IMG/VR virus record: IMGVR_UViG_3300018059_000041
Coordinates: 1 to 22,677 of that record
Origin: a virus
Length of the DNA stretch: 22,677 bases
Direction: 5' to 3' (one strand)
Of this stretch, positions 1,915 through 17,168 are shown in pieces; the first letter of the stretch is position 1; every line of letters starts with the position of its first letter. The notes under the pieces are model-generated. The model was not told the DNA's origin and did not search any database. It saw only the letters and a program-made list of their open reading frames with translations. Made by a program: the position numbers and the translations under genes.

Positions 1915-2019
1915 ATGAATAAAAAACTTTCTTGGTCTGATATTTGGCCTGCGCTCCTTTCTGCCGCCATTACCTTATTTATTCTATGGTTACTTAAAAT
2001 CCATGGAGTTATTTGGTAA
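1915..2019 (+). CDS. Small single-pass membrane peptide (34 aa), tentative
   Basis: A 34-codon ORF starts 5 bases after the methyltransferase stop and ends one base before the chosen start of the next gene. It fills an otherwise empty gap. The peptide has a charged start (MNKKLSW) and one long hydrophobic stretch (residues 13-27, ALLSAAITLFILWLL), so it would be a one-span membrane protein. No strong ribosome binding site is visible, and translation may be coupled to the upstream gene. It could be a membrane anchor for the glycosylation proteins, or a chance ORF. Function unknown. Confidence 0.35.
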   Translation: MNKKLSWSDIWPALLSAAITLFILWLLKIHGVIW

Positions 2020-2020
2020 T

Positions 2021-4120
2021 ATGATCATATCTCATTCAACCTTGGGTAAGAACGGACGACTCGGCAACCAACTCTTTCAACTCGCCTCGACGATGGGGCT
2101 GGCAGAAACGCATGGCGCACGCGTCGTCTTCCCTGTGTGGGAATACGAGCAATACTTCGAGACACCCATCCCGCACGGTGACATGCAGACCCAGGTCGTC
2201 GAGGAGCGTTTCTTCCATCACCATGACTGGGACATCCCCGGCGATTGCGATCTGCTGGGTTATCTCCAGTCCGAAAAGTATTTCGGCACTCAGCGATTGA
2301 AGCTCAAGCCATCTTTCGTTCAGGAATGCAAAGCTGCTTTTGACATCTTCCAGCGCGAGACGATCTGCATCCAGGTCCGGCGCGGGGATTATGTCGGCAA
2401 CCCTGGCTATTATCAGCTCTCCCCCACTTTCTATCTGGATGCGCTGGTTTCTCACTTCCCCAAATGGCAGGACTACAACCTGCTGATCACCTCCGACGAT
2501 ATTGAATATTGCAGGACGACGTTCGAGGGCCTGCCGAACGCCTACTTTTCCAGCGCCAATAGTGACATCCAGGACCTGGCCCTGGCATCCGCCTGTGATC
2601 ATTTCATTATCTCGAACAGCTCCTTCGGTTGGTGGTGCGCCTGGCTCGGAGAGAAGCCGCACTCGAAGATCATCCACAGCGGTCATATGTATGCCGGCAA
2701 ACTGGCACGCAAGGAGATCAAAGATTATCGCCCCGCGCGCTGGACGGAATACAAGAAGGAATCGTACAAGATCCCTTTGAAGGATCTAACGTTCACCATC
2801 CCACTCTTCTATGACCACGAGCACCGCAAAGAGAATCTCGGTCTTAGCCTCTATATGCTCCAATCCGCCATCGGTGCAAACTATATCTTTTGCGAACAGG
2901 GCGGGAGGCATTTTGAGTACACCAGCCAGTGGGGCACGTACATGACCATCGACTCGGATGTCTTCCACCGAACGAAGATGCTGAATGATATGGCAATGGC
3001 ATCTGAGACGCCATTCATTGCCAATTGGGATTGCGATGTGATCGTCCCAGCTGCGCAGATCTTGGCAGCTGTGGAAGCGTTGCGATCGGGCGCCGACATG
3101 GTCTTCCCCTACGATGGACGCTTCGCCCGCATGAATCGCACGGAGTGGTGGCCACGGATCCAGGGCGCGCGGGATATCGGCGGCGTGCGGGACACACCCT
3201 TCAAAGGCCGCACCCCTGACCATAACAGTGTAGGGGGCGCGGTGATATGGAACAAGGATTCGTTCGTGGATGCCGGCATGGAGAACGAGAACTTCATTAG
3301 CTTTGGTCCCGAGGACTGCGAGCGACACGATCGCGCGAAAACGTTAGGGTTGGATATCCGCCGTGTGAGAGGGACCCTTTTCCACATGAACCATTTCGTC
3401 GGGCCAAATTCCACACCCAGCAATCCCTATTTCGCACACAATACCGAGCAGATCGAGAAGATCCGCAAGATGGACCGCCGCCAGCTCAGGGACTATATCG
3501 ACACCTGGCCCTGGCGGCACCAATACACAGCACGTTATTACGGCCAGATCAGCGAAGGCAGCATCGCATCGGCCCGAGTGGTGATGCGCGCCCTGGATTT
3601 CGAACCCCAGTCGATCATCGATATAGGCTGCGGCGTGGGCGAGTGGAACAACGGTCACCCAGACTACGTCGGCGTGGATTACCGTGTGCGACTTGAAGAT
3701 CTGCTGATCGCGCCGGCACGCTTCATCGAGTGTGATCTCAACCGGGAGTTTCTGAGTTTGGATCGGAAGTTCGACCTGTGCCTGTGCCTGGAAGTCGCCG
3801 AGCACCTGAAGCCGTCTCGCGCGGAAGGGCTGGTCCAGATGCTTTGCAGCCTGTCGGACCGAGTCTTGTTCTCCGCTGCCATTCCCCACCAGGGCGGGAA
3901 CGGACACGTCCATGAAGCCTGGCAAAGCTATTGGGCGGTGTTGTTTAAGCAGAATGGCTTCGGCGCAGCAAAATATCAGCCGAACATTCGAGACTGCGAA
4001 GATGTGGAATTGTGGTACCGGCAGAATATTGTTTTGTATGAGCGCGGTGCGAAGGGACGTGTGAAAGACTTCGTGTTGCCGGCCTACTATTTGCAGATCG
4101 TGGAGGCGTTACGACGGTAA
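2021..4120 (+). CDS. Three-domain protein: GT11 fucosyltransferase, GT-A galactosyltransferase-like, SAM methyltransferase
   Basis: Numbered from the ATG at 2021 (699 aa); an in-frame ATG at 2003 would add six residues but lacks a ribosome binding site. Domain 1, about 1-250, is GT11-like (alpha-1,2-fucosyltransferase): GRLGNQLFQLA near 12, CIQVRRGDY (donor-binding HxRRxD-type motif) near 116, and SNSSFGWW near 198. Domain 2, about 255-500, has a DxD-like NWDCDVIV near 335 and SFGPEDCERHDR near 427, resembling the GWGxEDDD region of beta-1,4-galactosyltransferase-type enzymes. Domain 3, about 501-699, has SAM motif I SIIDIGCGVGEW near 531 and DLCLCLEVAEHL near 585. One chain could therefore add two sugars and a methyl group to a glycan. 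It is followed 4 bases later by the terminase small subunit. Confidence 0.7.
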   Translation: MIISHSTLGKNGRLGNQLFQLASTMGLAETHGARVVFPVWEYEQYFETPIPHGDMQTQVVEERFFHHHDWDIPGDCDLLGYLQSEKYFGTQRLKLKPSFVQECKAAFDIFQRETICIQVRRGDYVGNPGYYQLSPTFYLDALVSHFPKWQDYNLLITSDDIEYCRTTFEGLPNAYFSSANSDIQDLALASACDHFIISNSSFGWWCAWLGEKPHSKIIHSGHMYAGKLARKEIKDYRPARWTEYKKESYKIPLKDLTFTIPLFYDHEHRKENLGLSLYMLQSAIGANYIFCEQGGRHFEYTSQWGTYMTIDSDVFHRTKMLNDMAMASETPFIANWDCDVIVPAAQILAAVEALRSGADMVFPYDGRFARMNRTEWWPRIQGARDIGGVRDTPFKGRTPDHNSVGGAVIWNKDSFVDAGMENENFISFGPEDCERHDRAKTLGLDIRRVRGTLFHMNHFVGPNSTPSNPYFAHNTEQIEKIRKMDRRQLRDYIDTWPWRHQYTARYYGQISEGSIASARVVMRALDFEPQSIIDIGCGVGEWNNGHPDYVGVDYRVRLEDLLIAPARFIECDLNREFLSLDRKFDLCLCLEVAEHLKPSRAEGLVQMLCSLSDRVLFSAAIPHQGGNGHVHEAWQSYWAVLFKQNGFGAAKYQPNIRDCEDVELWYRQNIVLYERGAKGRVKDFVLPAYYLQIVEALRR

Positions 4121-9123: not shown

Positions 9124-9140
9124 AACACATGAGGTGAGAT

Positions 9141-9194
9141 ATGAATAAAATAAAGTTTCGATTGCGGAGGCGGATATGCCTAATCCAATTATGA
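9141..9194 (+). CDS. 17-residue basic leader-like ORF
   Basis: A GAGGTGA ribosome binding site sits exactly where expected before this ATG. The ORF encodes only MNKIKFRLRRRICLIQL and stops inside the next gene, whose own GGAGG site lies within it. It may serve as a translational coupler for the carbohydrate-binding gene, or be the decayed start of an older gene. No function can be assigned. Confidence 0.3.
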   Translation: MNKIKFRLRRRICLIQL

Positions 9195-10231
9195 CGCGGA
9201 AATTGACGGGAATGGGTTTTTTCAATTCAGCAGGCGTGCCGGGTATTACCCTGCCGTACACCTTCACGCCTCCTGTATCGGGTGCGTGGCCGTCTCCGTG
9301 GGTGGCTCCTACGTGGAGCGGGAAGGTAAATGTCCCGACATTAGGAGCAGAACTGTTTACCGACCCAGGGTTGGAAGGGACGTACACAGATGGGCTTGTC
9401 GCGCAGCTTGCCAAGTCTGGAAGTCCAACATTGGCACAATCGGCAGACGTTCACGGCGGCAACAAAGCACAAGAATTTACAGGGGTTACATCAAACAATG
9501 CGTTGTATAAAATTGTTGTACCAATAGCTAATAGATTCTATCAATTCTCATTCTGGACAAAGCGCACAGCGGGGAACAATAGCACCAATATTCCACAGCT
9601 CAGCGGTGGTGGCGGTTTTATTGCGTCCACTTCTTTTAGTGATCGAATCACATACGCGGAATACACGCAAAGAACAATCACAAAATTTATAAACAGTACC
9701 GCTAACCTTTTTGCTTATTTAGCTTATGACATAGGTATAAGTGGATTTGACACTATACTTTATGATGATTTAAGTCTTAGCTTTATTGATACACCAAGCA
9801 TGTTTGCAACAGTAGATGCAGGTGATGTTGCTGTAACTGCTAAAGCAAGATGGGATTGGACAAAGCGAAATGGTCTGTCTGGTGTAATCTCAAAAGCTGA
9901 TGTGGGGTTGAATAATTTTTTAGTCGCCTACTACTTTCCGATACATCAAGACTATACCTATTGTGTTCTCGATCAATGGGTCAATGGCGTTCCAACAAAC
10001 CTAATCGCTGCATGGTCTAACGCAGGCAGTCCGGGTTCAGGAAACACGCCTGCTGCCACGGAGTGGTTGGAAATTCGTGTTGATGAAACTAATACATTTG
10101 CTCAATTGTTCCATAATAATACGCAGGTCGGCACAAATAAAAATATAGATGCTGCACTTTTACCTAACACTAGAGTTGGTACTTTTTCCTCCGGAGGTGA
10201 TAGCCAACTGGCAGAATTTTTTTGTGGCTAA
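9176..10231 (+). CDS. Virion-type carbohydrate-binding protein (jelly-roll plus LamG-like)
   Basis: A 351-residue, beta-rich protein with a strong start (GGAGGCGGATATG). Residues about 60-205 look like a CBM4/9- or CBM6-type jelly roll (ELFTDPGLEGTYTDG, FYQFSFWTKR, then ILYDDLSLSF). Residues about 210-350 look like a concanavalin/LamG-type sandwich (ARWDWTKRNGLSG, EWLEIRVDET, then AQLFHNNTQVG). Such modules are typical of tail fibres, spikes and adhesion proteins that bind surface sugars. The frame stops right after LAEFFCG, one codon past a run of seven T. A +1 shift there would join it to the deacetylase ORF, so this may be the front half of one gene. AT-rich relative to the head genes. Confidence 0.55.
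   Translation: MPNPIMTRKLTGMGFFNSAGVPGITLPYTFTPPVSGAWPSPWVAPTWSGKVNVPTLGAELFTDPGLEGTYTDGLVAQLAKSGSPTLAQSADVHGGNKAQEFTGVTSNNALYKIVVPIANRFYQFSFWTKRTAGNNSTNIPQLSGGGGFIASTSFSDRITYAEYTQRTITKFINSTANLFAYLAYDIGISGFDTILYDDLSLSFIDTPSMFATVDAGDVAVTAKARWDWTKRNGLSGVISKADVGLNNFLVAYYFPIHQDYTYCVLDQWVNGVPTNLIAAWSNAGSPGSGNTPAATEWLEIRVDETNTFAQLFHNNTQVGTNKNIDAALLPNTRVGTFSSGGDSQLAEFFCG
10217..10223 (+). other. T7 homopolymer at junction of two likely joined ORFs
   Basis: Seven T residues in a row lie where the carbohydrate-binding frame ends and the deacetylase frame continues one base over (+1). In the second frame the peptide reads NFFVANSNLNPG, a natural end for a sugar-binding beta-sandwich. This could be a sequencing or assembly indel, a natural mutation, or less likely a recoding site. 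Confidence 0.5.
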
Positions 10232-10979
10232 TAGCAACTTGAACCCCGGATTAATAACCTTGCCTGTACAAATGGATCAAGATCAAGCAAGCGCAATTGC
10301 GATAGGTTTTGACGATGCCTTTGCATCCGTATATACAGAGGCTTATCCGCTGATGAAGGCGCGCGGATTGCGTGGAACGATTTACGTACCCACATTTTAT
10401 ATAGGTCAGGCAGGTTATATGACTGTTGAGCAATTGCAGGAGATGTATGCTGATGGATGGGATATATCCAGTCACGGAAAAACAGCGACACCGCTGGCGG
10501 GTCTGACCTATGAGCAACAGTTGGTAGAGATAAACGATGCGATGGATGCCTTAGATGGGTGGGGCTTTACTCGTTCGTCTCGGTACGTTGCTTATTCTGG
10601 AGGGTCATACGACTCCAATACATTATTAGTAATGGCAGCAACAGGACAATTGACGGGCAGAACGGTAGCAACAAACCGCATCAACGAATACCCAATCACT
10701 GCACCATATCTTTTGTATAACTGGGCTGTATTTGGCTCATCGGTTTCTTTGGCGGCAATGAAAGTGCATTTTGATAACATCCGCGCTGGCAATTTCACGT
10801 CCATCATTTATGGACACAAACTGGCAGCGACCGCAGAGGACAATAACACGTGGGCAATTGCAGATTTTCAAGTGGCGATGGATTATTTGATTACCCTGCC
10901 AATTGTCTGCCTGACTATAAGCGAGTTGCACACGCTAAATACTGCCACTGTGAGCCACAAGCATAGGATGGATTGGTAA
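10224..10979 (+). CDS. Polysaccharide deacetylase-like (CE4/NodB fold), possibly C-terminal half of the preceding protein
   Basis: The frame is open from 10149; GTG 10224 is used only because it is the first usable codon after the upstream gene's T-run. The protein has the NodB order: IAIGFDDAF (motif 1, TFDDG-like), GWDISSHGKT (motif 2), RYVAYSGGSYD (motif 3), SIIYGHKLA (late His motif) and a final strand CLTISELHTL. CE4 enzymes remove N- or O-acetyl groups from peptidoglycan or surface polysaccharide. On a virion this would modify the receptor glycan. In motif 2 the second metal-binding His is replaced (SHGKTAT rather than SHxxTH), so activity is uncertain. No good Shine-Dalgarno site precedes it, which supports fusion with the upstream ORF. 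Confidence 0.6.
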   Translation: MANSNLNPGLITLPVQMDQDQASAIAIGFDDAFASVYTEAYPLMKARGLRGTIYVPTFYIGQAGYMTVEQLQEMYADGWDISSHGKTATPLAGLTYEQQLVEINDAMDALDGWGFTRSSRYVAYSGGSYDSNTLLVMAATGQLTGRTVATNRINEYPITAPYLLYNWAVFGSSVSLAAMKVHFDNIRAGNFTSIIYGHKLAATAEDNNTWAIADFQVAMDYLITLPIVCLTISELHTLNTATVSHKHRMDW

Positions 10980-10993
10980 ATAGAATGAACATT
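10978..10993 (+). repeat. 16-bp direct repeat, left copy
   Basis: AAATAGAATGAACATT begins in the deacetylase stop codon. An identical copy is at 11731-11746, and the flanking ATTA two bases later also matches. The pair brackets the small basic protein and the adenine methyltransferase. Confidence 0.6.
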
Positions 10994-11019
10994 TGATTAC
11001 CACGGATGGAAATCAAATG
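10990..11019 (+). other. 9-bp inverted repeat (stem-loop) between deacetylase and 11033 gene
   Basis: CATTTGATT (10990-10998) pairs with AATCAAATG (11011-11019) around a 12-base loop. There is no T-run after it, so it is not a clear intrinsic terminator. It overlaps the left direct repeat and lies just before the next start, so it could be an operator or a weak terminator. Confidence 0.35.
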
Positions 11020-11032
11020 ATAAAATAGAGAT

Positions 11033-11227
11033 ATGAAAACAAAACTTTCAAACACACACGGCGGTAGACGCAAGGGAGCAGGACGCAAGGCGACCCCTGA
11101 ACCCGTATTTGAAAAGCGATTCCGAGCAACCGAGGAAGAGCAAAAGGAATTCATGTCTCTATTGACTGGCGACGCGAGGCAGGATTTCATTCTCATACTT
11201 GAAGCATTGAAAGGCAAGCAATCATGA
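11033..11227 (+). CDS. Small basic protein (64 aa), possible DNA-binding
   Basis: Encodes 64 residues with a very basic N-terminal GGRRKGAGRK segment (about 10-19), followed by a charged helical part (FRATEEEQKEFMSLL). The GRRKGAGRK motif recurs in small phage proteins and resembles an AT-hook-like or nucleic-acid-binding tail. The ribosome binding site is weak. It overlaps the methyltransferase gene by ATGA, so the two are probably co-translated and may work together at DNA. Function is not established. Confidence 0.5.
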   Translation: MKTKLSNTHGGRRKGAGRKATPEPVFEKRFRATEEEQKEFMSLLTGDARQDFILILEALKGKQS

Positions 11228-11736
11228 ACGGTATGGGCAGTCATCAATCCCATAAGATGATTAAGGATGAATGGCTTACTCCGCCTGAAATCATAAAGGT
11301 TTTGGGAGAGTTCGACCTTGATCCTTGTGCGCCTGCTGTTCGTCCGTGGGATATGGCAAAGGAACACATTTGCCTGCCTGATAACGGACTAACGCACGAA
11401 TGGCACGGGCGCGTGTGGCTCAATCCACCTTATGGATCACACACGGGCGCGTGGTTATCTCGCCTTGCAGAGCATGGCAACGGAGTTGCCTTGATATTTG
11501 CAAGGACAGAAACGGCGGACTGGTTTAAGTGGATATGGTCAAAGGCAACCGCTGTTCTATTTATTGAAGGGCGGTTGTATTTCCACCACGTAAACGGGAA
11601 ATGTGCCAAGCACAACAGCGGCGCGCCGTCTGCCTTGATTGCCTACGGTAGAGATAATGCACAGGCTTTACTCAAAAGCGGCATAAAGGGCAAACTTGTT
11701 TTCCTAGATAAAAACGTTCTAGTCGAGTTTAAATAG
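11224..11736 (+). CDS. Phage N6-adenine DNA methyltransferase (Dam family)
   Basis: The 170-residue protein matches the phage Dam family (DNA_N6_AMT type). Features are DEWLTPPEI near 15, FDLDPCAPAVRPW near 29, HGRVWLNPPYGS near 61 (catalytic NPPY for adenine N6 methylation), then ALIFARTETADWF and the C-terminal FLDKNVLVEF. It would methylate phage DNA, probably to escape host restriction or to influence packaging and expression. No partner nuclease is nearby except the HNH gene on the other strand. The length is usual for the family. It overlaps the small basic protein gene by 4 bases. Confidence 0.88.
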   Translation: MNGMGSHQSHKMIKDEWLTPPEIIKVLGEFDLDPCAPAVRPWDMAKEHICLPDNGLTHEWHGRVWLNPPYGSHTGAWLSRLAEHGNGVALIFARTETADWFKWIWSKATAVLFIEGRLYFHHVNGKCAKHNSGAPSALIAYGRDNAQALLKSGIKGKLVFLDKNVLVEFK

Positions 11737-11746
11737 AATGAACATT
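11731..11746 (+). repeat. 16-bp direct repeat, right copy
   Basis: Identical to 10978-10993 and again overlapping a stop codon region, here the methyltransferase TAG. The two copies enclose about 740 bases and exactly two genes. Confidence 0.6.
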
Positions 11747-11751
11747 CAATT

Positions 11752-11835
11752 ATGACCGCCCTTGATATGCTTCTGCTGTCCGTTTTGTTGGTTACTGTTG
11801 TATTGTGTGGACTATTAGTGCTGGTGATTGGATAA
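11752..11835 (+). CDS. 27-residue hydrophobic peptide, tentative
   Basis: An ORF of 27 codons right after the right repeat encodes MTALDM followed by an almost unbroken hydrophobic stretch of about 20 residues (LLLSVLLVTVVLCGLLVLVI). This would be a single membrane span with no soluble domain. The ribosome binding site is poor. It could be a small holin-like or regulatory membrane peptide, but nothing beyond hydrophobicity supports this. Confidence 0.3.
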   Translation: MTALDMLLLSVLLVTVVLCGLLVLVIG

Positions 11836-11849
11836 TCGAAAGGACTTTG

Positions 11850-11948
11850 ATGATGGCATCTCGTAGAGTTTACAACAAGGTTTTCTCCCCTGAGATCTGG
11901 GAGATGGTCAATCCCCAGAACAAAGAGCTGCTGGATGATGCTAGCTGA
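11850..11948 (+). pseudogene. Integrase-like N-terminal fragment (tyrosine recombinase), truncated
   Basis: A 32-residue ORF with an AAAGGA site. RVYNKVFSPEIWEMVNPQNK then ELLDD resembles the start of core-binding regions of phage tyrosine recombinases, in which NKELLxDF leads into the SAM-like domain. The resemblance ends at ELLDDAS and the frame stops. The last 8 bases overlap the tail of the leftward HNH gene. The likely reading is a recombinase gene cut off by insertion of the leftward cassette or by deletion. No catalytic R/HxxR/Y part is found nearby. The family call rests on a short match from memory. Confidence 0.35.
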
Positions 11949-12417
11949 ATTTTTTGTGACAAATCCGACATACAGGGATAACGTCCAGCCAATTCTCTTT
12001 GGCGTAGCCTTTGTGGTGGTGATATTCCTGTGCCGGCCTACCGCACTCAACGCACTTCAGGGTTTTGATGTGAGGCAACTTCTTGTATTTAACGGCAAGG
12101 CGCACGGCAACGCGGGCATGATACTTTTCAGGACACTTTTTATTATATTTCTCTTGAGAGGCGTATACTTTGTTGCGATTGGTTTTAACCCACTCACTCA
12201 TGTAACTAGGATTGTTCTCCCGAAATTTTTTAGTTGCCTTGGCTTTTGTTTTACGTCGCTTTTCCGCGTTATCCCTAGCCCACCGGTTATTCTGAGCGTC
12301 CCTGCAAACTTTACACTTGCCTTCGCGGCCGTCCTTTGTGAACTTGCTTTCGTAGAACTCGCCGAGTGGCTTTTCTACGTCACACTCCTTGCACAGCTTC
12401 TTGATCTCATCACTCAT
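11941..12417 (-). CDS. HNH homing-type endonuclease with N-terminal zinc ribbon
   Basis: A leftward 158-residue protein with a perfect Shine-Dalgarno (GGAGGTGAG) just before its ATG at 12417. The N-terminal CKEC (9-12) and CKVC (35-38) make a zinc ribbon. The long basic middle (about 45-110) suits DNA binding. The C-terminus has CVEC (122-125), YHHHKGY (132-138) and VCRICHKK (149-156), the HNH catalytic/zinc site. Free-standing HNH genes of this kind are selfish elements common in phages. It is the last gene of a leftward operon opposite to the head genes, and it abuts a truncated integrase-like fragment, consistent with insertion. Confidence 0.85.
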   Translation of the reverse strand: MSDEIKKLCKECDVEKPLGEFYESKFTKDGREGKCKVCRDAQNNRWARDNAEKRRKTKAKATKKFRENNPSYMSEWVKTNRNKVYASQEKYNKKCPEKYHARVAVRLAVKYKKLPHIKTLKCVECGRPAQEYHHHKGYAKENWLDVIPVCRICHKKFS

Positions 12418-12420
12418 CTC

Positions 12421-12507
12421 TCACCTCCGCGCGGCGGTAGCCGTTACTATAGTAACGGCTACCAATTCTTGCCAAGACTCGTCCCAGTGGTAAGTGGGGC
12501 CAGCCAT
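12421..12507 (-). CDS. 28-residue ORF spanning a perfect palindrome, tentative
   Basis: On the minus strand an ATG 3 bases after the stop of the 135-residue protein opens a 28-codon ORF (MAGPTYHWDESWQELVAVTI, then VTATAARR). Its stop codon lies inside the HNH ribosome binding site (AGGTGA), a classic coupling layout. A 28-bp palindrome occupies its second half and encodes the VAVTIVTAT-like repeat. The ORF may exist for coupling, or the palindrome may be the functional object. Confidence 0.35.
   Translation of the reverse strand: MAGPTYHWDESWQELVAVTIVTATAARR
12436..12463. repeat. Perfect 28-bp palindrome
   Basis: Each half reads GGTAGCCGTTACTA and its exact reverse complement, with no spacer. 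RNA from either strand could form a stem of 12 pairs with a four-base loop, but no U-run follows on either side, so it is not a standard terminator. It could be a dimeric protein operator, a recombination or cleavage site, or a translational control hairpin before the HNH gene. Confidence 0.8.
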
Positions 12508-12510
12508 CGA

Positions 12511-12918
12511 TTACAGGCCGAAGAAAGTACGCGCGGTCAGGCGAATGGCGACGGCGATCAGTTCCACCGCGCAAAGCCAGGAGCGGGTCATTGTGCGGAA
12601 CATCAGCGCGCGGTGAGAGCTAAAGAAACGGAAGAAGTCGCCGGTGTATATCTTGGCGTTATTGGCCTGCTCGCTCGCAATCTTCCACGCGGTTACAACT
12701 TCATCGGCGAGAGTAGGGCCGATCAGAAATTGAATATCAAGAACAGCTTCAAGCAAAAAGTTTCTTCCGGGGAAATTGCGTGCATTGGAAAACGCCAGCG
12801 CGGTATTGACTTGCCATTCAACAGTGCGGCGCTTCCACGGCGTCTTGCTAATGATCCGCAACGCTCTATGCAGTCTGGCATCCAAATTATCATCGGTAGG
12901 GTTTTGAGAATCAAACAT
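12511..12918 (-). CDS. Hypothetical 135-residue protein, leftward
   Basis: Starts at 12918 with AAGGAG 8 bases upstream and ends 3 bases before the 28-residue ORF, as the second gene of the leftward cassette. The sequence is mostly helical. It has a charged N-terminus (DDNLDARLHRALRII), Arg/Trp-rich middle (TPWKRRTVEWQVN) and an aromatic and basic C-terminal third (GDFFRFFSSHRALMFRTM). I recognise no domain. Its place between a ribbon-helix-helix regulator and an HNH gene suggests an accessory or defence-type role, but that is only inference. Confidence 0.6.
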   Translation of the reverse strand: MFDSQNPTDDNLDARLHRALRIISKTPWKRRTVEWQVNTALAFSNARNFPGRNFLLEAVLDIQFLIGPTLADEVVTAWKIASEQANNAKIYTGDFFRFFSSHRALMFRTMTRSWLCAVELIAVAIRLTARTFFGL

Positions 12919-12951
12919 GGCGATACTCCTTTATTAGTTGCACCGCCATGC

Positions 12952-12957
12952 TATAAT
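12952..12957 (+). promoter_or_regulatory. Isolated TATAAT on the plus strand, candidate promoter
   Basis: A perfect TATAAT lies in the 126-base gap between the two leftward genes, pointing rightward. No recognisable -35 stands 16-18 bases upstream. A transcript from here would contain the 12998-13031 hairpin and run antisense to the regulator gene. Confidence 0.2.
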
Positions 12958-12997
12958 TTAAACAGCATTCGCGGTGGTAGGTTCACTGCGGATGTCA

Positions 12998-13031
12998 GGG
13001 CTGAGAGTGTGTCTCACCACGCTCTCAGCCC
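12998..13031. other. 10-bp stem-loop between leftward genes
   Basis: GGGCTGAGAG (12998-13007) pairs with CTCTCAGCCC (13022-13031) around a 14-base loop. It follows the stop of the ribbon-helix-helix gene on the minus strand. With no U-run on either side it is only a possible attenuator, processing site or Rho-dependent end. The rest of this 126-base gap holds nothing else I can name. Confidence 0.45.
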
Positions 13032-13044
13032 GTCTTATAAACGA

Positions 13045-13248
13045 TTATGGGGCTTTGGGTTTCTTAGTTACCTCCTTGACTGCTGGCTTGACTTCATACT
13101 GCGCCTCAAGAGCGTTCTTCAGATAAAACTCAAAAGCGCGCAGCATTTCACTGTTCAACGAACGGCGATTGTTCTGCGCGCTTTTGGTAATCGCATCATG
13201 AAGATGCGTCTCTTCATCTGTGAACCGAATGGTGATTCTTGTAACCAT
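13045..13248 (-). CDS. Ribbon-helix-helix (Arc/CopG-like) transcription regulator
   Basis: A leftward 67-residue protein with a classic RHH core: strand TRITIRFTDEE (about 3-13), first helix ETHLHDAITKSAQNN, the NRRSLNSEMLRAFEFYL second helix, and a basic Lys-rich tail. RHH proteins dimerise and place the paired strand in the DNA major groove, often at tandem half-sites. It is the first gene of the leftward cassette and has its own promoter with two direct half-sites between -35 and -10, so it probably represses itself. It could also be an antitoxin-like partner of the downstream 135-residue protein, though they are 126 bases apart. Confidence 0.8.
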   Translation of the reverse strand: MVTRITIRFTDEETHLHDAITKSAQNNRRSLNSEMLRAFEFYLKNALEAQYEVKPAVKEVTKKPKAP

Positions 13249-13254
13249 AGCGCA

Positions 13255-13283
13255 ATAGTATCACCATCGTGTCACTACGTCAA
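13255..13283 (-). promoter_or_regulatory. Promoter of the leftward cassette
   Basis: On the minus strand TTGACG (13283-13278) is followed after exactly 17 bases by TACTAT (13260-13255). The expected start of transcription falls at or next to the ATG at 13248, so the mRNA would be leaderless. Good match to a sigma70-type promoter. Confidence 0.65.
13258..13275. promoter_or_regulatory. Tandem GTRTCAC half-sites, likely RHH operator
   Basis: GTATCAC (13258-13264) and GTGTCAC (13269-13275) are direct repeats 11 bp apart, about one helical turn, and lie between the -35 and -10 of the regulator's promoter, partly over the -10. This spacing suits two RHH dimers binding side by side. Confidence 0.5.
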
Positions 13284-13335
13284 GGCGGTTTCATGAAACT
13301 CAATTTCTTTTTACACAATCTCCTATAGGTGAATT

Positions 13336-13545
13336 ATGGACAACACGAGCCAACCCAACAAGCCTGTGACCGATCTATCTGACCGCGTGGTGCAACTGGC
13401 GCGCATGATCGAGCGGTTGCCGCCTGGCAACTATGAGATCTCGCTTAAGAAGCAGGAGCTGAGTGTGCAGCCTTGGAATGTGGAGATCGTGCGTACCGAA
13501 AAGATATCCAGCGCCAACCTATCCAAAGGAGCAACTCCGGAGTGA
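13336..13545 (+). CDS. Small hypothetical phage protein (69 aa)
   Basis: First rightward gene after the leftward cassette, with AGGTG 7 bases before the ATG. The 69-residue protein has a helical middle (LSDRVVQLARMIERLPPGNY) and then a beta-like segment (EISLKKQELSVQPWNVEIVR). No family is recognised. It overlaps the next gene's Shine-Dalgarno site, so the two are coupled. It returns to the GC-richer style of the head genes. Confidence 0.6.
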   Translation: MDNTSQPNKPVTDLSDRVVQLARMIERLPPGNYEISLKKQELSVQPWNVEIVRTEKISSANLSKGATPE

Positions 13546-13547
13546 TC

Positions 13548-13745
13548 ATGTGGTGGGATGTCACACAACTATCCAAGAAGGAAGTGCATGTGTATCCATC
13601 CGAGGAGGCGCATGAACACATTCTGGATGCGGAGCTCTGCAACTGTCTTCCGGACGTGAAAGAGGCGGCCGGAAACCGGATGGTCGTGCACCGCAAGATC
13701 CATAATGAACCGATCGTGGTACTCGATGCCGACGGGGTCAAATGA
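13548..13745 (+). CDS. Small hypothetical protein with CxC and His motifs (65 aa)
   Basis: The frame is open from upstream; ATG 13548 is chosen because CCGGAG is 5-8 bases before it. The sequence has EEAHEHILDAELCNCLPDV and then NRMVVHRKIH. This resembles small proteins in many tailed phages where a His precedes a CxC-P cluster and a VVHxxxD ending, possibly a metal-binding fold of unknown role. Function is not known. Confidence 0.55.
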   Translation: MWWDVTQLSKKEVHVYPSEEAHEHILDAELCNCLPDVKEAAGNRMVVHRKIHNEPIVVLDADGVK

Positions 13746-13837
13746 CTTCCTGCCCAAATGGGTATGTTCCTGATTCCAGCCCTCTGTGCTAAGATTTCAA
13801 CGATCAACTGAATCGTTCCCGATCCTTGCGAAAGCTG

Positions 13838-13871
13838 GCCCGGACTCCCTTCATGGAGTTCGGGCTTTTTT
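13838..13871 (+). terminator. Rho-independent terminator
   Basis: GCCCGGACTCC (13838-13848) pairs with GGAGTTCGGGC (13855-13865) over 11 pairs (one G-U), with a 6-base loop, and is followed directly by six T. It ends transcription from the left before the protease region. A second 6-bp stem (13799-13804 with 13812-13817) lies just upstream. Otherwise the 142-base gap holds no gene. Confidence 0.88.
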
Positions 13872-13887
13872 GTTTCCTGGAGCCTGT

Positions 13888-14337
13888 ATGCCTTATATGC
13901 TCGTCCACCATAAAGAAGAAGGAAAGGTCTGTGTTCACAAACAGAACGCAGATAAAGCCGCGGGGGAGATGATGCACTGCTACACGGGCCAGGACGCCGA
14001 GAATAAAGCCAAGGAATACATGAAGACGCTGTATGCCCATTCCAACGACATGTCAGTGATGAACAGGGTACTCCAATTCTTGGGCCTTCATCTTTCGTCC
14101 GAGCCTGAGGATGGCGAACGCTGGGTCACGATCAATGGTCAACGGGTGTTGATCGATGAAAAAAGCGGCGAAGTCAAACAGGGAAACAAAAAAGCCGTTG
14201 GATGGAAAGATCCGCACGAAGAATTCAAATTCGTCCAGCGCCGCCTGGCGGCCGGCAACCTGAAGCGAGGGGAAAAAAGAATGCTCGAGCGCCGCTCGGA
14301 ACGTCTCGCCAAACAGGTCCTTGGAGTGAAGGATTGA
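13888..14337 (+). CDS. Hypothetical head-region protein (149 aa)
   Basis: The frame opens at 13786, but the terminator lies inside that part, so the ATG at 13888 with GGAG 7 bases upstream is the likely start. The N-terminus (MPYMLVHHKEEGKVCVHKQN) looks like a small beta unit that includes C and H. The middle holds ERWVTINGQRVLIDEKSGEV, a short beta hairpin seen in phage structural proteins. The C-terminal third is a long basic helix (FKFVQRRLAAGNLKRGEKR). It lies directly ahead of the protease-scaffold gene (3-base gap). Function unknown. Confidence 0.6.
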   Translation: MPYMLVHHKEEGKVCVHKQNADKAAGEMMHCYTGQDAENKAKEYMKTLYAHSNDMSVMNRVLQFLGLHLSSEPEDGERWVTINGQRVLIDEKSGEVKQGNKKAVGWKDPHEEFKFVQRRLAAGNLKRGEKRMLERRSERLAKQVLGVKD

Positions 14338-14340
14338 GCT

Positions 14341-15798
14341 ATGCCCATACCTATGTCTCTCGACACTCAAATTGATACGGTGGTGGCGTGCCGCGACTGC
14401 ATCAAAAGCTGCGAAGCCTGTATCCAGCAGTGCCAGGATTGCCCCAATCGTGACGCCGTTCACGACTCCTGTGTCGAGTCTTGCCAGAAGTGTATTACCG
14501 CCTGCACGCAGACGATTTCGGATATCGGGCAAGGCGATGAGTATGAGGTTGTGCAATCCTGCCGCGAGTGCTCCCGCTTGTGCATGGAATGCGTGGAGAT
14601 GCTCGAGCTCTGTGCGGAAACCTGCGAGATGTGTAAGCCCACCTGTGAGACCTGCTCGGAATCGTGCGGTGTTTGTTCTGAAATGTGTAACCAGAATACA
14701 GGCGAGATGCCTGTGACTGGACCGGTCAATTACCTGCAATCGGATTTCTCGTTCACCGAGCTGGCCGCCTCCCATAAAGCGATCGACGGCATGGCTGCCA
14801 ATGACGAAGACCCATACATCAGCATGCGCGGGGAAGAGGTCTACATCCGGAGCAACGAGCTCGCGGCCTACCTCGAGAACACCCTGGCCGTGATCGAGAG
14901 CACGAAGACCGAGTCGGGCGAGATCGTGGGCCTGCCCATTGACCTCGAGGGTCACAATCATAAGGGCGGCGCCGGCTGGATCGTCGGGCTGGAACTGGAC
15001 ATCGCGCGCAAGGTCGTCCGCTTCCTGGTCAACTGGACCGAAAAAGGGATCGAGCTCATTAAGGGGAATCTGAGCCGCTTCTTCTCCCCCTCCGTGGATA
15101 CGGAGAACAAAATTATCTTAGGTGGCTCGCTGACCAATTGGCCAGCGTCAAGAAATGCGAAGGGGCAAATCCTACTGCGCCCCGTCGAGTTATCACAATC
15201 CATAAAGGAGATCGATATGGAAAAAACGCTGTTGGAAATGCTTGCCGATCTTCCCGGCAAGGTAGCCGAGGCGGTCCGCGGTGGGAAAGAAGAGAAACTC
15301 CCTCCCACGCCGCCCACTACCGATTTGGAAACCGAGATCAGTCCGCAGCCCAAGGAACTCTTGCGGACCCCGGAAGGGATCGAGGAGTTGGGCAAGCAAG
15401 CGCAAGAGCTTGCCAAGGGCGCGATCCATCTGGAAAAACGCAAGATGCACACCGTTCAGTTCGCATCCCAATTGGCGGGCGGCACGGCGGAACATCCTGT
15501 CGGGCTAAAAGTCCGCCCGAACGAGATCGTTGCACTCCTGCTCTCCCTGCCCGAGCCGCAAGCCCTGGCGGTCGAGAAGATCCTGGCAGGCGCCTTGGAT
15601 GGAGCGGTCAACTTCTCCATGCGCGGTCTGGATGGGTCTGGCTTCATCCAAAAGCCCGAACTGCCCAAAGAGGTCAAGGGCTATCTCAAGACCTGGGTGG
15701 ACGCCGGAAAACCTATAGGTGAGTTCTTCCAGATCAACCTGGAACTCGGCAATCCCGAGGACTACAACCTCACCGAATTCACCAGGAAGGAGTCGTAA
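14341..15798 (+). CDS. Head maturation protease-scaffold (Mu gpI-like) fused to N-terminal Csp/DUF326-like Cys-rich domain
   Basis: A 485-residue protein. Residues 17-116 hold 22 Cys in CxxC, CxxxC and CxxCxxxC spacings on predicted helices, as in Csp/DUF326 four-helix copper-binding proteins. No Cys occurs after residue 116. From about 130 to 285 comes a Mu gpI-like prohead protease: GEIVGLPIDLEGHNHKGG, AGWIVGLELD, NWTEKGIELIKGNLSRFFSP and LGGSLTNWPA. From 293 to the end it is scaffold-like: an acidic, helical, proline-bearing linker then a compact C-terminal part. An in-frame ATG at 15217 (residue 293) with AAAGGAG 6 bases upstream should make the scaffold alone. The protease normally cleaves scaffold and itself from the prohead; the Cys-rich head is not a usual part of the family. 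Confidence 0.82.
   Translation: MPIPMSLDTQIDTVVACRDCIKSCEACIQQCQDCPNRDAVHDSCVESCQKCITACTQTISDIGQGDEYEVVQSCRECSRLCMECVEMLELCAETCEMCKPTCETCSESCGVCSEMCNQNTGEMPVTGPVNYLQSDFSFTELAASHKAIDGMAANDEDPYISMRGEEVYIRSNELAAYLENTLAVIESTKTESGEIVGLPIDLEGHNHKGGAGWIVGLELDIARKVVRFLVNWTEKGIELIKGNLSRFFSPSVDTENKIILGGSLTNWPASRNAKGQILLRPVELSQSIKEIDMEKTLLEMLADLPGKVAEAVRGGKEEKLPPTPPTTDLETEISPQPKELLRTPEGIEELGKQAQELAKGAIHLEKRKMHTVQFASQLAGGTAEHPVGLKVRPNEIVALLLSLPEPQALAVEKILAGALDGAVNFSMRGLDGSGFIQKPELPKEVKGYLKTWVDAGKPIGEFFQINLELGNPEDYNLTEFTRKES
15217..15798 (+). CDS. Scaffold from internal in-frame start (Z-like)
   Basis: Within the protease gene and in the same frame, the ATG at 15217 has an AAAGGAG site (15204-15210) better than that of many stand-alone genes here. 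The product would be 193 residues: EKTLLEMLADLPGKVAEAV, then a Pro/Glu-rich linker and an alpha-helical end. In Mu the scaffold Z is made from an internal start of gene I, and lambda does the same with C and Nu3. The arrangement here fits that scheme. This entry overlaps the full-length gene by design. Confidence 0.6.
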   Translation: MEKTLLEMLADLPGKVAEAVRGGKEEKLPPTPPTTDLETEISPQPKELLRTPEGIEELGKQAQELAKGAIHLEKRKMHTVQFASQLAGGTAEHPVGLKVRPNEIVALLLSLPEPQALAVEKILAGALDGAVNFSMRGLDGSGFIQKPELPKEVKGYLKTWVDAGKPIGEFFQINLELGNPEDYNLTEFTRKES

Positions 15799-15800
15799 TC

Positions 15801-16256
15801 ATGGCTGATCTTACTGCAAATGCCCCTCTGCGCTTCAAGGGAACACCCGTTTCCGAGCGCTGGTACCTGGATACCTCGACCGCTCAAACGATCTATCGCG
15901 GGCAGCCGATGATCATTGACCAGAACGTGGACGCAGACAAAGCGCGCGGCTACGTGGATGCGACCGTGGTGGCTCCGGACGATGTGATCCTCGGCATTGC
16001 GGCCGAGGGCAAGACCGTCGTCGCGAGTGCCGCAGAGACGACCGAGATCGAAGTGTACGTTGCCCCGACCTGGGTCGGGTTCAAATCGACCGCGTTCGAT
16101 AATTCCGACCTCGGCAAGCCTGTGTACATGTCCGACTCAGGCACGCTCGCCGATACCGTCTATGCGGACAACCCGGAGATCGGCATCCTTCGCAAGATCG
16201 AGGATGGGTACTGCTATGTCGAGCTCACCACGCCGAAGATCCCGACGCGGGCATAA
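15801..16256 (+). CDS. Head decoration/cement protein (DUF2190-like)
   Basis: A 151-residue, beta-rich, soluble protein between the scaffold and the capsid genes, the usual place for a cement or decoration protein. A GGAG site is 11 bases upstream of the ATG. The pattern AQTIYRGQPMIID, DVILGIAAEGK and LGKPVYMSDSGTL resembles small capsid-stabilising DUF2190-type proteins with repeating short strands and G-V-A motifs. It would bind the outside of the expanded shell. The call is by context and general pattern; no catalytic residues are expected. Confidence 0.65.
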   Translation: MADLTANAPLRFKGTPVSERWYLDTSTAQTIYRGQPMIIDQNVDADKARGYVDATVVAPDDVILGIAAEGKTVVASAAETTEIEVYVAPTWVGFKSTAFDNSDLGKPVYMSDSGTLADTVYADNPEIGILRKIEDGYCYVELTTPKIPTRA

Positions 16257-16268
16257 GGAGATGACGAA

Positions 16269-17168
16269 ATGACCATAAGTGGCGAAATCCCTACCCTATT
16301 GAAAATGGCCGCACAGACTGGGTTTTTGACCAGTGCGCAGCCGCCCGTCCCTCTCTATGCCCCGATCGCCTCGACCTATGATATGCCGGCCAATGCGATC
16401 GACCTGGTGGATATCGGTGGCGCCCCCATGCCAACTCAAACCAAAGGCCAACCCAATATCCAGGGCTTTATCGAAAAGACCCTGCCGGTCAAGCCGCTCG
16501 ACTGGGACATCGAGGTCACGATCTCGTACAATGCCGTGCGGGATGACAAGACCGGGCAGTTGGAAAAGCGTGCCCGTGGCGCCGGTGACAATTTCCAACG
16601 CCACATCGCCCAGCAATGCTTCCAGGCCCTGAATGATGGCGATGCCGTCACGAACTTCGGCGCCTGCTACGACGGGTTATCGTTTTTCAACGATGCCCAT
16701 GTCGACAAAGGGGGCGCCTACCAGACCGTCCAGGACAACCTGGATGCGCTCACCCTCAACACGACCAATTTCCCGACCGTGTATACCAAGGCGCAGAAAA
16801 CACGCGACGATCAGGGTGTGTTCACACAATACAACTACGACCTCCTGGTCGTAGCGCCTGACCTGGCGAACGCTGCCTGGCAGATCACGACCATTAGAGG
16901 TGGAAGTGAGACCCCGGCAAATGCCAATCAATATGCGGGAATTGTGAAGCATACCGTGGCACCCCAGCTGGACGCGACTGCCGCTATTCTGGTGGCTTCG
17001 AACGAGAATGTAAAGCCGATCATCGTGGTCATGCGCGAGAAGCCCAATCTGCAGGCGGCCTGGTTCGATCCCCATGGACCGGACGGTGGTACCTATTTCT
17101 TCAAGTTCCATGCTGCTTACAACCATGTCTATGGTGAGTGGCGCACGGCGTATATGATCAACACATAG
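16269..17168 (+). CDS. Major capsid protein (Mu gpT-like)
   Basis: A 299-residue protein with a TAAGGAG site before its ATG. It has features of Mu gpT-like HK97-fold capsids: an N-terminal arm, the MPTQTKGQPNIQGFIEKTLP region, an E-loop-like charged stretch with YNAVRDDKTGQLEKRARGAG, GACYDGLSFFNDAHVDKGG (close to the DGxxFFxxxHP of the family), DLLVVAPDLANAAWQI, and a final aromatic strand YFFKFHAAYNHVYGEWR. It should form the icosahedral shell after the protease acts on the prohead. A terminator follows, so it ends a transcription unit. Confidence 0.85.
   Translation: MTISGEIPTLLKMAAQTGFLTSAQPPVPLYAPIASTYDMPANAIDLVDIGGAPMPTQTKGQPNIQGFIEKTLPVKPLDWDIEVTISYNAVRDDKTGQLEKRARGAGDNFQRHIAQQCFQALNDGDAVTNFGACYDGLSFFNDAHVDKGGAYQTVQDNLDALTLNTTNFPTVYTKAQKTRDDQGVFTQYNYDLLVVAPDLANAAWQITTIRGGSETPANANQYAGIVKHTVAPQLDATAAILVASNENVKPIIVVMREKPNLQAAWFDPHGPDGGTYFFKFHAAYNHVYGEWRTAYMINT

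Follow-up and report, generated by a model that had tools for sequence, protein, structure and literature searches.

In phage Mu, the I and Z genes are nested, and free scaffold is made in excess. In phage T4, diverse internal proteins are taken into the head by a short, N-terminal capsid-targeting sequence that is removed by a protease (PMC3012670; PMC7411985). Among the copper storage proteins, Csp3 is established to form tetramers of four-helix bundles, and the thiols of the apo-protein are resistant to oxidation (PMC5171941). The His motif of classical Csp3 proteins is missing from a described Csp3 subgroup and from the non-classical RkCsp3 (PMC10155185). Metal handling in phage heads is almost unexplored.

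Here we report on a 22,677-nucleotide stretch of DNA from a metagenomic bacterial virus (the whole of which is called the window) that carries a gene for a head maturation protease-scaffold preceded by a Cys-rich domain. Both parts are known. The original prediction had noted that no described head protease is known to carry such a domain, and this agrees with our searches: no example was found in the collections and literature searched, within which the fusion is new. Literature matches that appeared to join DUF326 with phages proved to be a false lead, as the matched string in those examined was really DUF3263 or DUF3269. The fusion suggests that a metal sponge may be packaged in the particles of this virus.

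A protease-scaffold gene with a Cys-rich start

The gene is a single open reading frame (ORF) of 485 aa on the plus strand (14341-15798) whose frame is uninterrupted. Its coordinates, frame and length are exactly as first described, as is the confinement of all 22 Cys to residues 17-116, with none beyond residue 116. These Cys are located at positions 17, 20, 24, 27, 31, 34, 44, 48, 51, 55, 74, 77, 81, 84, 91, 95, 98, 102, 105, 109, 112 and 116, such that 18 of the 21 gaps between them have a spacing of 3 or 4 residues, compared to 15 for the best of 200,000 random placements. Nine CxxxC motifs are present. The GC fractions at the three codon positions (0.49/0.47/0.68) are comparable in order to those of the protease (0.61/0.39/0.75), and therefore the Cys-rich region is read as coding DNA. 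A Shine-Dalgarno-like AAGGA (14329..14333, plus strand) is located 7 nucleotides before the ATG at 14341. The Cys-rich domain itself, with its predicted helices, comprises residues 1-121 (14341..14703, plus strand), and is followed by a stretch modelled with low confidence (residues 122-144; 14704..14772, plus strand) that is probably a flexible linker.

Beyond this junction is a putative Mu I-like head maturation protease domain (14746..15195, plus strand) with a predicted beta fold at residues 147-265. Residues 135-485 match the phrog_328 head maturation protease family (E 0.0004), and the Pfam profile PF10123 (Mu-like_Pro) matches the ORF with an E value of 0.0017 and 18.4 bits, which is below the cut-off of 25.2 bits. 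Other relatives also score below this cut-off, the best reaching 24.4 bits. Residues D201 (14941), H205 (14953) and S249 (15085) are invariant in the 19 aligned members and are the candidates for catalytic residues. Among the structure matches to viral proteins are a capsid maturation protease and a Mu-like I protein, with low whole-chain TM values and large rmsd. Together with the gene neighborhood, these matches and the invariant residues bear out the initial assignment of this region as a Mu gpI-like protease and scaffold.

The scaffold-like tail (15217..15798, plus strand) consists of a disordered stretch followed by helices at residues 344-480, and terminates with the conserved sequence ..DYNLTEF. 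At its beginning is an internal ribosome site, AAGGAG (15205-15210), followed by an ATG at 15217, which together (15205..15219, plus strand) provide a nested start for a predicted free scaffold. Of 22 aligned members, including the window, 17 have a start with a Shine-Dalgarno-like site at this position or a few codons away, and in most relatives the AAGGAG and ATG within the protease frame sit at the position of a KEIDM sequence. The internal start goes beyond the original prediction and, by comparison with Mu I/Z, would be expected to yield an excess of free scaffold.

The gene resides in a canonical head module, which begins with the small and large terminase subunits, continues with portal, a phrog_24776 protein and an inserted block, and then comprises the protease-scaffold, a decoration-like protein and the major head protein. 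The decoration-like virion structural protein (15801..16256, plus strand; phrog_1731) is encoded by the next gene, and is followed by the Mu-like gpT major head protein (16269..17168, plus strand; PF10124, phrog_371). Directly 5′ of the terminase genes is a 705-aa ORF (2003-4120) with family-11 glycosyltransferase (fucosyltransferase type), galactosyltransferase-like and methyltransferase domains, and the adjacent ORFs at 24-1910 have a sugar-related look with no Pfam match. These ORFs may represent phage-borne glycan genes or the edge of a prophage.

The protease N-terminus as a variable slot

Protease-based scans of viral contigs, combined with ORF inspection, yielded ~40 distinct relatives, none of which carries a Cys domain at the protease N-terminus. 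Protease relatives were not confirmed in any of the scanned bacterial genomes, and a seven-Cys DNA pattern searched for in viral contigs recovered low-complexity or antisense frames, with no Csp-like protein among the matches listed. The fusion is known from one contig only. The original prediction had named, as evidence against itself, homologues that lack the Cys-rich region together with a frame break at the junction, and the first half of this pair is what the relatives present.

In the relatives, the N-terminal position is either empty or occupied by a CVHK, beta, ChaB-like or other module. By this comparison, the protease family has at its N-terminus a slot for interchangeable modules. 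The ChaB-like module of one relative (L240) gives a weak Pfam ChaB match (E 0.016), and those of L247 and L250 are alike by eye. In L018 and L242, a beta domain is located between protease and scaffold. The ChaB-like and beta modules (the latter with the pattern VxxxYxVxxx...YKVxY) shift between the protease N-terminus and the protease-scaffold junction among these five phages.

In the closest relatives, the protease ORF opens with the CVHK module, which is followed by the beta domain; the CVHK module is located inside the protease ORF in L002, L003, L007 and L011. The beta domain is missing in the window, and the CVHK module is encoded by a separate upstream ORF (MPYMLVHHKEEGKVCVHK...; 13888..14337, plus strand) that begins with an ATG at 13888 and ends with a TGA at 14335-14337. 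This ORF, which also was not part of the first description, shares its frame with the protease ORF, and its counterpart in the relatives is the N-terminal part of their one long ORF. Readthrough of the TGA at 14335 would restore that long ORF, but this is not the preferred interpretation, given the good ribosome site and the ATG directly after the stop.

DNA homology to the closest relative (L002) ends at 9125 and restarts at 14746, at the first protease codons. The intervening block (9126..14745, plus strand) has no DNA homology to L002 and spans 5.6 kb, compared to ~1.45 kb in that phage. Because the homology restarts at 14746, the Csp-like domain constitutes the right end of the replaced block. 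A chimeric assembly is unlikely, since both flanks match the same phage type and the position of the CVHK module is unchanged. Within the block, a lower-GC portion (9176-13300) carries genes for a polysaccharide deacetylase (10149-10979) and a Dam-type methylase (11224-11736), as well as an HNH-like/DUF968 gene on the minus strand (11941-12417).

This arrangement bears directly on the strongest rival to a functional interpretation, which is that recombination, in the course of module exchange, accidentally joined to the protease, in frame, a phage or host csp gene bearing its own ribosome site and start, and that the added domain is tolerated because the N-terminal slot is permissive and is removed by autoproteolysis without any role in the head. 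Because the domain ends at the recombination junction at 14746, exactly where the homology to L002 resumes at the protease start, the fusion could be a recent accident of this kind. The csp-like segment also has its own AAGGA and ATG directly after the upstream stop codon. Moreover, with one contig carrying the fusion and none of the ~40 relatives doing so, selection for the fusion is without support from conservation, and the existence of a single known copy makes the accident a serious rival. However, no break interrupts the 121-residue frame, the 22 Cys are in register and the coding composition is preserved. In addition, other phages repeatedly place folded modules in the slot, which points to designed tolerance and not to decay. 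On balance, we consider a purely accidental fusion to be unlikely, albeit deserving of serious attention.

The predicted fold of the Cys-rich domain best matches Csp3

Profile searches with the Cys-rich domain give scores that are at most suggestive of a Csp assignment. The DUF326 (PF03860) and Csp1 (TIGR04401) profiles match the ORF with 16.4 and 14.6 bits, respectively, which are below their cut-offs of 20.4 and 100. A Csp3 HMM built for this analysis scores the domain at 19.8 bits, compared to 6.8 ± 5.6 bits for shuffled sequences in which the Cys were held fixed, and 10 of 300 such shuffles equal or exceed the real domain. The reversed domain sequence scores 25.4 bits. Since reversed and some shuffled sequences score as the real domain does, the HMM signal mostly reflects the heptad pattern of Cys residues. 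In the profile comparison proposed with the original prediction, the established DUF326 and Csp profiles thus remained below threshold, and the Csp3 HMM placed the domain only modestly above its Cys-fixed shuffles.

Structure prediction provides stronger evidence than sequence for this assignment. An AlphaFold2 model was generated for the full-length protein from an alignment in which homologous rows were essentially absent for residues 1-121. An automatic alignment of the domain with two Csp-like sequences (L146 and L147) misplaced helices and was left out of modelling. In the model, residues 1-121 form four helices (7-32, 39-64, 67-94 and 99-120), with pLDDT blocks in this region mostly >75. 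The first eleven PDB matches of the modelled bundle identified with Foldseek are all Streptomyces Csp3 proteins (E 1.2e-3 to 5.3e-3, probability 1.00, TMt 0.78-0.89), with rmsd values mostly of 1.6-2.1 Å and one of 3.3 Å. Next in rank are the Csp3 proteins of Methylosinus and Bacillus, and then Csp1. Full-length matches are weak (E 0.4-10) and mostly carry the annotation of four-helix bundle copper-binding proteins. When the domain was modelled alone from its single sequence, four helices were again obtained, with looser packing and weak, non-confident Csp matches, and therefore the claim of a Csp fold depends on one model.

A helix-wise alignment with bacterial Csp3 proteins reveals 15 invariant Cys columns, with all four helices and their Cys in register, and the spacing of the 22 Cys suggests that they face the core of the bundle. 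The helix 3-loop-helix 4 His motif of classical Csp3 proteins is absent from the domain, and the only His among residues 1-128 is H41, in the loop between helices 1 and 2. By its modelled fold, the domain is best matched by Csp3, and the structural comparison supports the original proposal of a Csp-type four-helix bundle.

The same data can be read another way, as a zinc or Fe-S helical bundle, or another metal- or thiol-binding protein without Csp ancestry, that converged on a heptad Cys pattern. The scores of the reversed and shuffled sequences and the sub-threshold profiles would fit such a protein. However, the number and lengths of the helices and the register of the Cys fit Csp3, and the Cys spacing differs from that of zinc ribbons or 4Fe-4S ferredoxins. 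Convergence of this type strikes us as quite unlikely.

Standalone Csp-like proteins in huge phages

Standalone Csp-like proteins are encoded on three large phage contigs: LR745206, a 635-kb phage (L019; 4917-5303), a 242-kb contig (L259; 4001-4438) and a 100-kb contig (L146; 4974-5414). The Csp3 HMM scores those of L019 and L146 at 57 and 63 bits, respectively. All three start with MK[YH]LK.FFE, as part of a shared N-terminal tag MK[YH]LK.F(F/N/E)E, and the corresponding DNA pattern occurs 35, 18 and 7 times in the genomes of L019, L259 and L146, compared to 0 for a reversed-pattern control. Translated starts bearing the tag (18 from LR745206 and two from the 100-kb contig) follow the form MK[YHN][LI]K.F, often succeeded by x-E, which resembles a T4-type cleavage motif. 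By analogy with the T4 capsid-targeting sequence, the tag is a candidate capsid-targeting or other sorting signal. Two further sequences, L020 (an Acinetobacter ‘phage’ DUF326 protein) and L147, were set aside, being ordinary Csp3 genes whose contigs carry a phage label.

Discussion

The best explanation for these observations, to which we assign a probability of about one in two, is that the Csp3-like bundle is a thiol-rich metal-binding domain of the Cu(I) type that is taken into the prohead by the protease-scaffold, either as cargo or as a pro-domain. The gene would encode a three-part head protein in which a Csp3-like bundle of 22 Cys is followed by a Mu I-like serine protease and then by a scaffold tail. 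In the most likely scenario, the tail would bring full-length molecules into the prohead, alongside an excess of free scaffold generated from the internal start. We infer that the bundle travels with them and binds a thiophilic metal, most plausibly Cu(I), and that the flexible linker formed by residues 122-144 is a place where the protease could free the bundle during maturation. The bundle might then buffer copper or another soft metal in the maturing head or, alternatively, a retained bundle might enter the next cell with the DNA.

Two further roles for the domain appear improbable. A tetrameric bundle of the Csp3 type could bring protease molecules together in the core of the prohead, metal binding being secondary, as is compatible with the established Csp3 tetramers (PMC5171941) and with fusion to an assembly protein through a predicted flexible linker, but the relatives assemble without the domain. 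It is no more probable that the protease is turned on or off when the thiols are loaded with metal or oxidized, despite the location of the bundle directly N-terminal to the protease and the general sensitivity that thiols might be expected to have to metals and redox state, because ~40 relatives use this protease in the absence of the domain, some of them with unrelated modules in the slot, the linker is predicted to be disordered and apo-Csp3 thiols resist oxidation (PMC5171941). The original prediction had offered three possible roles, namely a gate on the protease, a cargo that is cleaved off and kept in the capsid, and a means of bringing metal into the infected cell; of these, the gate is the less likely.

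If the bundle truly enters the prohead, then a maturation protease would serve as the carrier for a metal-storage domain, and virions would be directly testable for Cu(I). Because huge phages encode tagged, standalone copper-storage-like proteins and the protease N-terminus is a slot for modules that interchange, the question can be tested in more than one phage group. A broader and doubtful proposal is that copper-storage-type metal sponges reach phage heads by two or more routes, one being fusion to the protease-scaffold and the other a shared short tag. The thiol-rich metal buffer that virions would then carry, or inject, would shield the particle or counter stress from copper or other metals in the next host.

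Comparison with known systems

Like the Mu I protein (PF10123, phrog_328), the product of this gene combines a protease with a scaffold tail, and the two share an internal start, a place in the head module and the invariant His and Ser. The phage gene described here differs by the addition of the N-terminal Csp-like domain and by forming its own protease subfamily, whose Pfam scores are sub-threshold.

The bundle shares with Csp3 (DUF326/PF03860) a four-helix architecture of ~118 residues, CxxxC motifs and the lack of a signal peptide (PMC5171941; PMC10155185). Characterized examples have 16-19 core Cys, whereas the phage domain has 22, and its connection between helices 2 and 3 is longer. The lone H41 in the helix 1-2 loop is somewhat similar to the situation in RkCsp3. 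Known Csp3 proteins are cytosolic and standalone, whereas the phage bundle is fused to a head protease.

With the internal proteins of T4 and the Csp proteins of L019, L146 and L259, the latter being of the same fold class as the bundle in the window, the shared idea is that diverse proteins would enter the head by means of a targeting element. Those proteins are free and carry a short tag, whereas the bundle described here is fused to the protease-scaffold.
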